A stretch of DNA of 32,171 nucleotides. Origin: a virus. The stretch spans positions 1 to 32,171 of the IMG/VR virus record IMGVR_UViG_3300047510_002518; one strand, written 5' to 3'. A program made the position numbers and the translations under genes. This document shows, piece by piece, positions 5,654-23,188 of the stretch. The notes under the pieces were generated by a model. That model searched no databases. It was not told where the DNA came from and was given only the letters and a program-made list of their open reading frames with translations. Position 1 is the stretch's first letter; every line of letters begins with the position of its first letter.

Positions 5654-6710
5654 TTAATGATATTCCCATGATGCGAGCTTTCCATTCCACCATAGATTCC
5701 ATCTTTTGCGCCTCATCCATAACCAGCGACTTTTGCATTTCGGCAATTTTAATCATGTTGGCTCGCTCTTCCTCGTCTTGAAACAACTGAACAATAGAAA
5801 GGATTGATGCGTTTTCTTTTTGTCTTGAGGAGATTCTTTCGCGCCTGTCGCCTTGCAGCTTTTTGATTAAGCTCTCTACACGCCCTTCGCACTGGTGATA
5901 CTCGCTGCTTTTGGCTTTGATGATTTCGGCTAAACGAATACTCATTTCATTCTGTTCCTGAGTCTCCTCAAACATTTTGTTTAGCTTGTCCAAGTGTCTC
6001 GACGTAGTTTCAAGATTAATAATTTCTTTACAAACGTTCATATACAAGTTGACCTCGTCAGCGGTGAGATCTGGCTTATCCCAAGTCATTCTAATAAACT
6101 CTTGCTCAAAAATATTGCGATCTTCGTGAGAAGTGTAGCAGTTTATAATCTTTTGAAATCTAGAATTGCCCAAGTTGATGGATAGCTTATCCATGCAGAC
6201 TTTGTGATGCCTTGTAAGCCGTTCCTTGTCTAGCTTCTCGCCAGTCGCATCATTAATCTTATTGATGATACGCTCTGCTGAACGAGGGACTTGATATCTT
6301 ACAAAAGCCGCATTATCTGACTCGGAGTTGTTTTCGCAGCCAGAGATTTTAATATAGTTGCTAACCGTTCTGTGTTCAGACCCCATTGCCGCAATTGACT
6401 TTCCGGGGTAAAGAAGTTCTGCAATTTTCAGTGAAGATATTCCGTCCCTAGCTTGATCTTCTATAAACTCCTGTTGCTGCTTGGTAAGAGGCAAGTCTCC
6501 AACTTTTTCATATTTAGACGTCTTATATTCAATTTTATTTGAGCCCAAAAACGATCTAATAGCAACGCCTTGCTTTGTTCTCCCATCCAACGTTTCATCA
6601 TTAAAGAATTTGCGCGTAATAGTATTTAAATCAGGGAATTGCTGGGCAAGTTCCTTGATTCTCTGACCCTCTTCCTCAGTAAATGTTATTTGATTTTTAT
6701 TGGTAGCCAC
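5640..6710 (-). CDS. Helical DNA-binding-like protein, possible terminase small subunit
   Basis: 356 residues starting at a GTG. The start is fixed by a 14-nt overlap with the preceding sigma-like gene. The first 120 residues contain segments that look like helix-turn-helix units (around LTKQQQEFIEDQARDGISSL). Residues 220-340 are strongly charged and heptad-like, consistent with a coiled coil. Two genes downstream lies the terminase large subunit, with the ERCC4 nuclease in between, so a small-terminase or packaging-adaptor role is reasonable. The protein is longer than most small terminases and no diagnostic motif is visible, so the function is a guess from position. Confidence 0.85.
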   Translation of the reverse strand: MATNKNQITFTEEEGQRIKELAQQFPDLNTITRKFFNDETLDGRTKQGVAIRSFLGSNKIEYKTSKYEKVGDLPLTKQQQEFIEDQARDGISSLKIAELLYPGKSIAAMGSEHRTVSNYIKISGCENNSESDNAAFVRYQVPRSAERIINKINDATGEKLDKERLTRHHKVCMDKLSINLGNSRFQKIINCYTSHEDRNIFEQEFIRMTWDKPDLTADEVNLYMNVCKEIINLETTSRHLDKLNKMFEETQEQNEMSIRLAEIIKAKSSEYHQCEGRVESLIKKLQGDRRERISSRQKENASILSIVQLFQDEEERANMIKIAEMQKSLVMDEAQKMESMVEWKARIMGISLNDAV

Positions 6711-13877: not shown

Positions 13878-13999
13878 TGTCAATACGTAGTTCCACGTAG
13901 AACATCATTTTTACAAATTTTTTACAACCGGGCCTGGCCCGGATGTAAATTGTAAAAAAAATGTAAAAGAGCATAGCTACGTAGTTTCACGTATTGACA
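13878..13999. repeat. Extended repeat cassette 1 (outer dyad around island repeat)
   Basis: TGTCAATACGT at 13878 and its inverted copy ending at 13999 flank the core dyad. Between them lies an imperfect palindrome GTTCCACGTAGAAC (13890..13903). A relative of the whole cassette, including the upstream hairpin, is at 14894..15056. The ends look like operator or recombination sites; no gene is present. Confidence 0.75.
13908..13968. repeat. Island repeat, copy 1 (full dyad)
   Basis: Left arm TTTTTACAAATTTTTTACAA, core CCGGGCCTGGCCCGG (13928..13942), right arm ATTGTAAAAAAAATGTAAAA. T-rich left and A-rich right arms pair with each other, so it is not an ordinary terminator. Confidence 0.9.
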
Positions 14000-20758: not shown

Positions 20759-20950
20759 ATGAGCCCAATACAAAAGCAAGCTTACGATGACTTGATCATC
20801 GTTGCCAAGATGGCGAAAGCCTACTTCGACAACAAGAAGGACGGACGGGGGATCGAAGATCCCCTGTGGCACTCGGCCCGAAAGGCGTTGGCCTCCGTTG
20901 CCAAGGCAGATGACGAGCAGTTTGACCTCAAGTGCCGATTGGCAGACTGA
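20759..20950 (+). CDS. Small helical protein, last gene of bL12-like operon
   Basis: 63 residues: MSPIQKQAYDDLIIVAKMAKAYFDNKKDGRGIEDPLWHSARKALASVAKADDEQFDLKC. Helical with charged faces. It begins 3 nt after the bL12-like stop, so the two are translated together. No family recognised. The strong terminator follows immediately. Confidence 0.7.
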   Translation: MSPIQKQAYDDLIIVAKMAKAYFDNKKDGRGIEDPLWHSARKALASVAKADDEQFDLKCRLAD

Positions 20951-20955
20951 AAGCA

Positions 20956-20983
20956 AGCCCCATCGAAAGGTGGGGCTTTTTTT
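20956..20983 (+). terminator. Strong intrinsic terminator at island end
   Basis: AGCCCCATC pairs with GGTGGGGCT around a GAAA tetraloop, followed by seven T. The T-run runs into repeat copy 7. Confidence 0.92.
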
Positions 20984-21038
20984 ACACTTTTTTTACAACC
21001 GGGCCAGGCCCGGAGGGCTGGGGGGTTTACCCTAGCCC
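20977..21038. repeat. Island repeat, copy 7 (half dyad plus TTTACCCTAG)
   Basis: Core CCGGGCCAGGCCCGG at 20999..21013. The right arm is replaced by GGGTTTACCCTAG, as in copies 3 and 4. It marks the end of the plus-strand island. Confidence 0.85.
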
Positions 21039-21080
21039 CATCTAGGGGACTATCCTTATTTATCCCTTATTTGTTATTAT

Positions 21081-21109
21081 TTGACTTCTCTTTCGTTATT
21101 TATTTAACT
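21081..21109 (+). promoter_or_regulatory. Possible promoter before the multi-hairpin element
   Basis: TTGACT, 17 nt, TTAACT. If used, transcription would begin about 20 nt before the 13-bp stem. Weak -10. Confidence 0.25.
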
Positions 21110-21134
21110 CAGACTCACTCTTATTAGAAAGAAA

Positions 21135-21257
21135 CCCAGTCAGGTTAAGGCTTGCCCTAGCCTTGTTATGCGTAATGGGCCATACACCATTGTTTGATTA
21201 CTAACTATTTTGTTTTGTTTGGTGGGCTCGGCAGAGTGCCGTTCTAACCTGACTGGG
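21135..21257. ncRNA. Candidate structured RNA with 13-bp closing stem and three hairpins
   Basis: CCCAGTCAGGTTA (21135..21147) is perfectly complementary to TAACCTGACTGGG (21245..21257). Inside are AAGGCT/AGCCTT (21147..21164), AATGG/CCATT (21174..21191) and CGGCA-GAG-TGCCG (21229..21241), joined by a T-rich linker. Read on the minus strand it starts 10 nt past a small-gene stop and ends in TTTCTTTCT, so it could be a 3'-UTR RNA or a terminator. Read on the plus strand it follows an AT-rich region. It could also be a miniature mobile element with 13-bp terminal inverted repeats. Strand unknown. Confidence 0.55.
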
Positions 21258-21266
21258 AAAGTTGTT

Positions 21267-21416
21267 TTATTCTGCGGCGCTCTCCTCTGCGAACTCAAAC
21301 GCAGTGGCATCGCCATAGTGGGCGCAATCAGAAAGATACTTCAGTAAGAGGTTGTACGCCTCTTCCTCAGAGGACGCTACGATGTTATCAACGAACTTGA
21401 TATTGAATGTTTTCAC
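21267..21416 (-). CDS. Small protein, GTG start, end of RuvB-like operon
   Basis: 49 residues: MKTFNIKFVDNIVASSEEEA then YNLLLKYLSDCAHYGDATAF, ending in acidic EFAEESAAE. The GTG start overlaps the stop of the previous gene as GTGA. No family recognised; the acidic end suggests a small adaptor. The multi-hairpin element lies just after its stop. Confidence 0.6.
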   Translation of the reverse strand: MKTFNIKFVDNIVASSEEEAYNLLLKYLSDCAHYGDATAFEFAEESAAE

Positions 21417-21583
21417 GCGACTTCAAACGGCAGTTCAGTTTGGTACTCAGTCCACTTGACCTCTGCACTATCCTTGTCTGCATTGTCCAAGTCAAGATCA
21501 ATGATCTCCAATTCGATGTCAACGTTAGAGCGCGCACCTTGAATGGCGCCGCCTTCAATCCATATAGCAATTTTGTTTTTCAT
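21413..21583 (-). CDS. Small protein of RuvB-like operon
   Basis: 56 residues: MKNKIAIWIEGGAIQGARSNVDIELEIIDL, then an acidic end with EVKWTEYQTELPFEV. Starts just after a perfect 13-bp palindrome and 58 nt after the RuvB-like stop. It overlaps the next gene by 3 nt. This beginning is common, from memory, in small phage proteins of unknown function. Confidence 0.65.
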   Translation of the reverse strand: MKNKIAIWIEGGAIQGARSNVDIELEIIDLDLDNADKDSAEVKWTEYQTELPFEVA

Positions 21584-21589
21584 ATTAAA

Positions 21590-21602
21590 TGGTGGGCCAC
21601 CA
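21590..21602. repeat. Palindrome TGGTGGgCCACCA before a small gene
   Basis: Perfect 13-nt palindrome with a single central G, between the RuvB-like stop and the next minus-strand start. It may be an operator or an attenuating hairpin. Confidence 0.6.
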
Positions 21603-21640
21603 CTACCGCAGGTTGCCCAGTCTCGGTATGAATAACAATA

Positions 21641-22570
21641 TCAACTCCTAACAACTTCAAGCACTTTCGAGCCTGCCGCCGTGAGCTTGCGCGACCCTTC
21701 AATCTTCATGAAACCCTTTTGGAGTAGGAAGATTTCGGAATCACGTTGGAGCGAGGAACGGCTCATGCCAGTGATAGCACTGAGCATATTGAGCGAGCAG
21801 TCGCCACGATCCTTGAGCGCACGGAGAATCTGAATTTCGGTATTGTTAAGTCCAGCGGGGTTAATGCCGATCTTGCTGCACAGGTCATCCCACTCCTTAC
21901 AACCAAAATTCTTGCTTGCTTTGGTATCGCAGTACATCTCGATCTGCTTTGCACGCTGGACAGACGAGCGGGCATTGCCACGAACAGTAGTTGCGACTCG
22001 CTCCAGAGCCTCGCCCTTGAAGGAAACGTCAGGAAGAATCTTTTGGATAATCTTGCCAACGTCACCGTGAGAATAGGTCTGGAAATCGATGTGAGTCAGG
22101 CGGTCCTTGAGCGGGCCAAAGAGCTTGTCAGCTTCAGTAGTCGCAAGCATGAACGTCTGCTTCTTGAAGTTGAACTCGTACAGCCCGTCGCGCCAGCTTA
22201 CCTGTTTAACGTCCGTCCTCTCAGTATTGAAAGCAGTGAGGAGTACAGTCATCAAGTCCTTGGGCAAGGCATGGCACTCGTCGAGCAGCACCGTGATCTC
22301 GTTGCCTTGGATGACAGGGGCGAACACCTGTTCAAAGAACACTTGAGCATTCTTGATGGTGCCGCAATTGATTTCGAGGAAAGCCTTGGGAGCGCCGTCC
22401 TCGGCCTTGATGGCGCGAGCAGTCTCCTTGGCGAACTCGGTCTTGCCCATGCCCTTGGCACCTGTCAGCAACAGGAAAGGAAAACGCTTGGTCTTCTCAT
22501 GAGCGTCGAGATAGAAGTTGAGCTTCTTCTTGACATCCTCCTGACCAATCAATTCAGCAAAACGATTCAT
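21641..22570 (-). CDS. RuvB-like AAA+ ATPase
   Basis: 309 residues. Walker A GAKGMGKT (37-44), Walker B LLDECH (95-100), an ATTEAD sensor-1 region (143-148) and a LKDRL segment (154-158) where RuvB has its arginine-finger stretch. A small helical lid follows. About residues 240-305 form a winged helix (TEIQILRALKDRGDC, then LSAITGMSRSSLQRDSEIF) as in RuvB. RuvB drives Holliday-junction branch migration, but no RuvA or RuvC partner is seen in this window, so a clamp-loader-like or helicase-loader role is also possible. It is 12 nt after the AT-hook gene and shares its promoter. Confidence 0.85.
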   Translation of the reverse strand: MNRFAELIGQEDVKKKLNFYLDAHEKTKRFPFLLLTGAKGMGKTEFAKETARAIKAEDGAPKAFLEINCGTIKNAQVFFEQVFAPVIQGNEITVLLDECHALPKDLMTVLLTAFNTERTDVKQVSWRDGLYEFNFKKQTFMLATTEADKLFGPLKDRLTHIDFQTYSHGDVGKIIQKILPDVSFKGEALERVATTVRGNARSSVQRAKQIEMYCDTKASKNFGCKEWDDLCSKIGINPAGLNNTEIQILRALKDRGDCSLNMLSAITGMSRSSLQRDSEIFLLQKGFMKIEGSRKLTAAGSKVLEVVRS

Positions 22571-22582
22571 GGTAATGTAGGA

Positions 22583-22828
22583 TTAGAGTTTGGTGATCTT
22601 GAACTCCACCTTGGGGGAGGAGTCGGAGTCGTTGACCTCGGTGATAGAACGGGAGATCGGCTGGATAGCAAGCCCCATCTTCTGGAGCCAGATGCGCGAC
22701 ACAGGGATCGCGCTCTTGGTGCCAACGAACTGATCGAGGTCAGCGAGGCTGACATTGACAAAGGAGGTGGACCCAACAGGGCGTCCCCGTCCGCGCTTAG
22801 TAACCGTAGCAGTGGTGGTCTGATTCAT
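22583..22828 (-). CDS. AT-hook-like DNA-binding small protein
   Basis: 81 residues from the ATG at 22828, chosen because a TTGACG/TACAGT promoter lies 8 nt upstream; a longer frame begins inside the promoter. The N-terminus has RGRGRPVGS, the AT-hook core that binds AT minor grooves. The rest (VSLADLDQFVGTKSAIPVSR then IWLQKMGLAI) is a compact helical domain seen, from memory, in small phage proteins. It leads the RuvB-like operon, so it may help load the ATPase onto DNA. Confidence 0.75.
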   Translation of the reverse strand: MNQTTTATVTKRGRGRPVGSTSFVNVSLADLDQFVGTKSAIPVSRIWLQKMGLAIQPISRSITEVNDSDSSPKVEFKITKL

Positions 22829-22836
22829 ACGCGAGC

Positions 22837-22864
22837 ACTGTACCACATTTTCTGCCCCCGTCAA
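22837..22864 (-). promoter_or_regulatory. Promoter of AT-hook/RuvB-like operon
   Basis: On the minus strand TTGACG, 16 nt, TACAGT, 8 nt to the ATG at 22828. Same geometry as the plus-strand island promoters. Confidence 0.75.
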
Positions 22865-22927
22865 GCCCCCTCTGCACTTTTTTTTGAAAAAAAACGAGGC
22901 CCAGAGGCGGCGATTTTTAATTAATTT

Positions 22928-23188
22928 TTATTCCTTCCAGTACTGGGTTACTTTGCCAGCGGTCGCTGCTCCTAAGATCGCAATCAAAAATGTTGACAAT
23001 CCTGCGGGGAACTCCAGCAGCGCGCCCTTCCAAACGGACAAGATTCCCCATACGGTTATAGGTAGAATCGCACAGAAAAACGTGCATAGTAGCATCTGCA
23101 ATCTAATTGAAGATAAAACGCCGTCGCTTTCTTCTAGGAACTTTAATAGAGTTTTCATGCGGGCATTATTTGGCGCACTCTCATTCAC
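22928..23188 (-). CDS. Putative holin, two membrane spans
   Basis: 86 residues. Hydrophobic spans at about 30-53 (LQMLLCTFFCAILPITVWGI) and 63-79 (LSTFLIAILGAATAG) with a charged N-terminal head (RMKTLLKFLEESDGVLSS) and tail (KVTQYWKE). Size and topology fit holins, which open the inner membrane at a set time. Direct evidence is the neighbouring spanin, whose gene overlaps it by 4 nt. The endolysin is elsewhere in the window. Confidence 0.75.
   Translation of the reverse strand: MNESAPNNARMKTLLKFLEESDGVLSSIRLQMLLCTFFCAILPITVWGILSVWKGALLEFPAGLSTFLIAILGAATAGKVTQYWKE

Follow-up and report, generated by a model that had tools for sequence, protein, structure and literature searches.

In the window, meaning the whole stretch of 32,171 bases analysed here, a minus-strand operon with a RuvB-like gene meets an opposing plus-strand operon, and a structured RNA element lies at their junction. 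Read along the minus strand, the order is promoter, 93-aa open frame, ATPase gene, leader hairpin, ORF1, ORF2, element, U-rich tract and AT-rich block. The main features of the locus are the following.

22837-22864, minus strand: candidate sigma-70-type promoter, TTGACG-16-TACAGT with TG, a match to the consensus only
21641-22570, minus strand: RuvB-like or phage clamp-loader-like AAA+ ATPase of 309 aa, from Pfam and PHROG matches
21592-21624, minus strand: leader hairpin motif GAGACTGGGCAACCTGCGGTAGTGGTGGCCCAC, 0.35 kb upstream of the element
21413-21583, minus strand: ORF1, 56 aa, with the leader hairpin ahead of it
21267-21416, minus strand: ORF2, 49 aa, the last gene before the element, from the listing of open reading frames
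21135-21257, minus strand: structured RNA element of about 124 nt, RNA 5' end at 21257, from covariance model R1 and covariation
21126-21134, minus strand: U-rich tract TTTCTTTCT directly after the closing helix, a possible transcript end, U-rich in four homologues
21036-21121, minus strand: AT-rich, iteron-like block in which TAAATAA boxes recur at about 21-23 bp, conserved at the junction
20955-20978, plus strand: predicted intrinsic terminator of the plus-strand operon

The ATPase matches the Pfam families RuvB_N (4.5e-10) and RuvB_C (2.6e-07) and PHROG 168, clamp loader (9.6e-16), while ORF1 and ORF2 have no family match in Pfam or PHROG. The listed TTG start of the 93-aa frame behind the promoter coincides with the promoter's -35 hexamer, and translation probably starts at a later ATG. 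A sequence-only reading of this DNA had placed the element directly behind a minus-strand stop and had given it perfect 13-bp closing arms. Both statements hold on recheck: the stop of ORF2 (21416-21267) lies at 21267, 9 nt ahead of the element, and the arms CCCAGTCAGGTTA (21135-21147) and TAACCTGACTGGG (21245-21257) form an exact 13-bp inverted repeat with smaller hairpins inside.

These arms are the sole perfect inverted repeat of at least 13 bp, at a span of up to about 230 nt, in the whole 32,171-base contig. First-order Markov simulation yields a mean of 0.185 such repeats per window and at least one in 12% of simulated windows, so the repeat by itself is only mildly unusual and constitutes weak evidence. 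Folding of both strands, as the sequence-only reading had suggested, gave -41.5 kcal/mol (z -4.67) on the minus strand and -45.1 kcal/mol (z -3.59) on the plus strand, each better than its own dinucleotide shuffles. After GC correction, equal stability was reached by 123 of the 5342 sampled 123-nt windows of the same contig (2.3%); energy alone would therefore not single out the element, and we rejected it as a criterion. From the window alone, without homologues, the case would have been moderate, and it is homology, rather than the repeat or the energy, that decides that the element is real.

Relatives were gathered via the upstream RuvB-like gene, which gave 15 contigs, and an alignment-based search added two more, one of them a short weak match. 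The element itself was searched by BLAST and then with covariance model R1. Besides the window, it occurs in three IMG/VR phage contigs, in a single copy per record: L002 (IMGVR 3300042475_003790), in which 120 of 123 aligned element positions are the same as in the window, L003 (3300047510_003064) and L004 (3300024506_000008). We take the setting of these phage contigs to be a lake. In all four contigs the site has the RuvB-like operon on one side and the opposing operon on the other, so that the location given by the sequence-only reading, at the junction of plus-strand genes and the minus-strand RuvB-like operon, is a shared one, and the covariance search that it had proposed recovered these three homologues. 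Position and single copy are thus directly supported.

Model R1 gave no convincing score on 22 further contigs, which are relatives or carriers of the leader motif, and among the 17 RuvB-like relatives only the closest three have the element (R1 scan, with L060 and L063 outside it). Degenerate patterns run on the viral collection returned only the same three contigs and two chance matches in apparent coding regions (L020, L021); on cellular genome contigs they returned six matches, none of which was accepted by the covariance model. A pattern for the downstream AT block likewise retrieved only the same three contigs, and the phage and plasmid collections searched for the element held no homologue. 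We read the element as clade-restricted.

The fold was scored on alignment A2, made up of the window, L002, L003 and L004, which represent about three lineages, with most double changes coming from L003. The scored structure has 32 pairs (13 in P1, 5 in P2, 4 in the pseudoknot, 5 in P3 and 5 in P4), placed as follows from the RNA 5' end.

21245-21257, minus strand: 5' arm of the closing helix P1, 13 bp, with double-sided changes in 6 of 13 pairs, one G-C to G.U and none broken
21229-21241, minus strand: hairpin P2, CGGCA-CUC-UGCCG, with double-sided changes in 2 of 5 pairs (L004, L003)
21224-21227, minus strand: pseudoknot strand GCCC, partner at 21154-21157, paired in 100% of cells
21170-21187, minus strand: hairpin P3, GUGUA-UGGCCCAU-UACGC, loop UGGCCC kept
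21148-21163, minus strand: hairpin P4, AGGCU-AGGGCA-AGCCU, whose loop carries GGGC, the pseudoknot partner
21135-21147, minus strand: 3' arm of P1, from covariation

Standard pairs fill 98.4% of the cells, and 9 of the 32 pairs are altered on both sides. The covariation score is 0.344 against 0.187 +/- 0.030 in shuffles, none of 500 shuffles reaching it, and when partners are slid by 1-3 columns, pairing falls to 19-40%. Helix-keeping compensatory changes, on which the sequence-only reading had staked its structured RNA, are therefore present in the homologues and mark the element as a conserved structured RNA. The closing helix is the clearest example: in L003, five P1 pairs are replaced on both sides and one G-C has become G.U, in L004 one more pair is replaced on both sides, and neither shows a mismatch. 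Between L003 and the window, 11 of the 26 P1 positions differ, with all pairs kept.

In P2, a different G-C pair has changed to A-U in L004 and in L003. The pseudoknot joins GCCC (21224-21227) to GGGC (21154-21157) in the P4 loop; L003 has GUCU with GGAC, including a change from C-G to U-A, and L002 and L004 each have a G.U. Since it is short, with 4 bp only, the pseudoknot is less certain than P1 and P2. P3 is the weakest helix, with no double change, one G.U variant and two pairs that are unalignable in L004, and in P4 four of the five pairs are invariant and the fifth is broken in L004. The sequence-only reading had described three perfect small hairpins, of which P2 and P4 hold. The third, AATGG/CCATT, pairs perfectly in the window and is unconserved in the homologues (broken in two of four, 80% of cells paired); we rejected it, and the overlapping P3 (GUGUA/UACGC) and the pseudoknot, which that reading had overlooked, take its place. 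An alternative helix, CACCA/TGGTG, is plainly absent in L003, which is without CACCA. Conservation also extends to single-stranded segments, namely an A-rich strand (CAAACAAAACAAAAUAG...) and the loop UGGCCC. The fold is directly and well supported by covariation; the function is what we infer.

The same alignment bears on whether the locus is a MITE-like mobile DNA with 13-bp terminal inverted repeats. The terminal repeats are perfect, the size is within the MITE range, and TTT on both sides is readable as a 3-bp target duplication. However, the element is single-copy per record and sits at one orthologous site in four phages, its arms vary between phages by paired changes including G.U, its inner helices covary, and the flanks beyond TTT carry no duplication. 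Neither the multiple copies nor the target-site duplication of a MITE was found; this explanation is effectively excluded, and the structured-RNA claim of the sequence-only reading, which had itself raised a MITE, survives.

The wobble pairs indicate which strand is the RNA. Nine G.U cells are all pairable only in the minus-strand reading, the complement giving A.C, and 124 of 126 cells are paired on the minus strand versus 116 of 126 on the plus strand, consistent with one transcribed strand. Furthermore, given the plus-strand terminator at 20955-20978, plus transcripts are expected to end short of the element. The G.U pairs, which fit the minus strand only, and this terminator, which precedes the element, both indicate a minus-strand RNA. 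This agrees with the sequence-only reading, which had proposed a structured RNA of this strand where the RuvB-like operon ends.

Directly behind P1 the minus strand runs into the U-rich tract, which the sequence-only reading had correctly given as TTTCTTTCT; the homologues L002, L003 and L004 have TTTCTTTCT, TTTCTTTCA and TTCCTTTTA, respectively, with just 6-7 U among the 9 positions. No classical intrinsic terminator was found on the minus strand of 20900-22960, and P1 with UUUCUUUCU is a long-range arrangement outside the definition of a local GC-rich hairpin followed immediately by a U-tract. Relatives without the element have other hairpins at the same spot, such as CCTCGCTACTT/AAGTGGCGAGG in L005 and GAACTCTATA/TATAGAGTTC in L009, and between the hairpins of L005 and L007 a G-C pair is swapped for C-G (by eye). 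Because of these hairpins, we take a structured 3' end to be the rule at this site. The relatives' hairpins are simple and without a U-tract.

A plain terminator or mRNA end stabiliser, in which the long stem and the U-rich tract halt RNA polymerase and the inner hairpins are incidental, would fit the end of the operon's last gene 9 nt upstream, the tract right behind P1 in four homologues and the opposing operon on the far side. Like a plain intrinsic terminator, the element places a GC-containing stem and, behind it, a U-rich tract at the end of an operon; unlike one, it has a branched, pseudoknotted interior that sets the P1 arms 97 nt apart, and it went undetected as a terminator. Covarying P2, the pseudoknot and the conserved single strands are not needed for termination, and the relatives' hairpins at the site do without a U-tract. 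We therefore consider this explanation unlikely, and the earlier view that the element is too complex for an ordinary terminator is supported.

The element lies 3' of a same-strand coding region without a promoter of its own, as 3'-UTR-derived small RNAs do. The sole other minus-strand promoter-like match, at 21495-21467 within ORF1, is what chance would give, with 2 matches against an expectation of 1.4. In phage phiKZ, a structured RNA of about 100 nt lies, like the element, in the 3' UTR and on the strand of a phage mRNA, PHIKZ298, and its authors assume that it is processed from that 3' UTR (PMC8545117). It differs in having two stem-loops, the second a possible terminator, with no closing helix or pseudoknot described, and in having been observed on a northern blot (PMC8545117).

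The genes upstream of the element vary between the homologues. L004 is without ORF1 and ORF2, so that the element comes immediately after the leader motif, and L003 has an extra open reading frame between ORF2 and the element, reading into it. Because the 5' edge of the element and the downstream block persist in both while upstream sequence is exchanged, the element behaves as an autonomous module. A trans-acting phage small RNA, either a sponge or protein-binding, that acts independently of the operon mRNA would account for these stable boundaries, for the conserved single strands and the loop UGGCCC, and for the presence in the L004 element of AGUGGUGGCCC, which also stands within the leader hairpin; because of this shared sequence, both might bind the same protein. 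Against it, no promoter of its own was recognised beside the element, and an antisense search in the phages' own genes gave only chance-sized matches of 12-14 nt. We regard it as a doubtful alternative.

Beyond the U-rich tract, an AT block with TAAATAA boxes occurs at the same junction in L002-L007, L011 and L013 and is co-conserved with the element. TAAATAA boxes at the convergent operon junction were also located at 6817-6890 in L003, 6381-6435 in L011 and 6512-6565 in L013. The array is a possible origin or protein array. ColE1 RNAII and T4 origin transcripts prime or regulate replication through an RNA-DNA hybrid, and a replication-control RNA would work similarly here: the transcript would fold into a sensor or control part, enter the purine-rich, iteron-like block and prime or gate replication through such a hybrid. 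The boxes lie directly downstream at 21-23 bp and are kept in relatives, and the operon encodes a clamp-loader-like ATPase. However, cumulative GC skew has no turning point and gives no origin signal at the junction, and most relatives have the AT block without the element. This explanation is very improbable; if it were true, a dsDNA tailed phage would be using an RNAII-like system.

At gathering score, Rfam 15 found only a tRNA in the window, away from the element; a permissive scan of 20900-21700 gave no match overlapping 21135-21257, and Rfam gave none at the element in L002-L004. Weak matches to STnc100 and RsmY at 20945-21123 lie outside the element, below gathering scores, and were rejected, as was a tRNA or tmRNA identity, of which there is none at the site. 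The sequence-only reading, which had recognised neither a tRNA nor a known riboswitch, was right in this respect. An integron attC site was set aside, with no proper R''/R' core boxes (RYYYAAC / GTTRRRY) on either strand by eye and no integrase noticed.

The phi29-type pRNA (Rfam Phage_pRNA) is of similar size and, like the element, has loop interactions and a long helix that joins its ends over a multi-branch junction. We rejected this identity: there is no Rfam match, and the phage has a conventional large terminase and no phi29 packaging system. The loop interaction modelled in the element is also within one molecule, unlike that of phi29-type pRNA. GOLLD and ROOL RNAs are often phage-borne. 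They are several times longer than the element, for which there is no Rfam match. They are structured noncoding RNAs (PMC12286853) that, like the element, came from environmental sequence. A search of the freely accessible literature found no description of the element. We rate it a new RNA family, of the kind 'phage structured noncoding RNA in 3' UTR'. Few structured RNA families are known from tailed phages; this one was uncatalogued, and its covariation includes a pseudoknot. It also illustrates how inspecting raw sequence for closing stems can reveal genuine RNA families that energy scans leave unranked.

Our preferred reading, which we hold at about even odds, is a new clade-restricted structured noncoding RNA of uncultivated tailed phages, a minus-strand 3' module that most likely ends and protects the ATPase operon transcript and is maybe a small RNA as well. 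The operon transcript would start near 22.84 kb, include the RuvB/clamp-loader-like ATPase and continue through ORF2 into the 3' module. There the RNA folds into a multi-branch structure that P1 closes, with hairpins P2 to P4 inside it and a pseudoknot tying the post-P2 strand to the P4 loop. Together with the U-rich tract, this compact fold most likely sets the transcript 3' end and blocks 3'-5' exonucleases. The core of about 124 nt may also accumulate separately, by analogy with 3'-UTR-derived small RNAs, and the A-rich single strand and the UGGCCC loop might bind a protein or another RNA. We infer the end of transcription, the processing, the stability and any partner. A 3'-end role is favoured because all four phages have the U-rich tract and structures recur there in relatives, and more than an end is favoured because single strands are conserved and a pseudoknot is present; termination or protection alone would not explain the latter two. 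Counting against the 3' module are the small alignment of four sequences, effectively three lineages, the negative minus-strand search for a classical terminator, the modest U content of the tract, and the fact that relatives manage with simple hairpins. Behind it we rank, in order, the plain terminator, the independent trans-acting RNA and the replication-control RNA. With a replication-protein operon on one side of the element and a conserved iteron-like block on the other, a role in ending, protecting or regulating the transcript would be directly testable given a host or a reporter.

The leader hairpin upstream of ORF1 was observed more widely. In the majority of phage contigs that were examined, the motif GAGACTGGGCAACCTGCGnnAGTGGTGGCCC is confined to a single locus and lies immediately 5' of a start codon, L004 and duplicate copies excepted; the hairpin GAGACTGGGCAACCTGCGnnAGTGGTGGCCCA is also present in L003, L004, L006, L009, L011, L023, L025-L029, L031, L032 and L035. 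Its spacing is near-constant, mostly 34-39 nt from motif start to start codon, before unrelated genes, including DNA polymerase-like genes (by eye, DIETRS start) in phages without an adjacent RuvB-like gene. Sixteen aligned copies are near-identical outside two loop positions, an invariance that stems partly from the pattern used to find most of them. The hairpin has no Rfam match. It is a candidate translational control element and may be a more general discovery than the element itself.

Several variants accompany this leader. At about 6088-6125 of L002, a leader-region piece (TTATTCATGCCGAGACTGGGCAACCTGCGGTC) is inserted in frame within ORF1. A second leader-like hairpin, GTGCGCATA...ACGCAC, lies at 6450-6505 in L006, about 5940-5975 in L013 and about 6117-6170 in L014; in L013 and L014 it precedes a start codon and takes the place that the GACTGGGCAAC leader has in other phages. 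Between two leader-motif copies in L003, an 89-nt insert (5986-6074) has a closing stem GTCAGG/CCTGAC and a possible nested pseudoknot. A 90% copy of it lies on the opposite strand at another location in L013 (7974-8055), which suggests a mobile structured element. Finally, the dyad TTTTTACAACCGGGCCWGGCCCGG has seven 15-nt cores in the window, at 13928, 14977, 15633, 17364, 18332, 20125 and 20999. These dyads occupy intergenic positions in the plus-strand operon; several have mirrored AT arms, some are followed by TTGACA-like sequences, and they are candidate operator, stoperator or replication sites.
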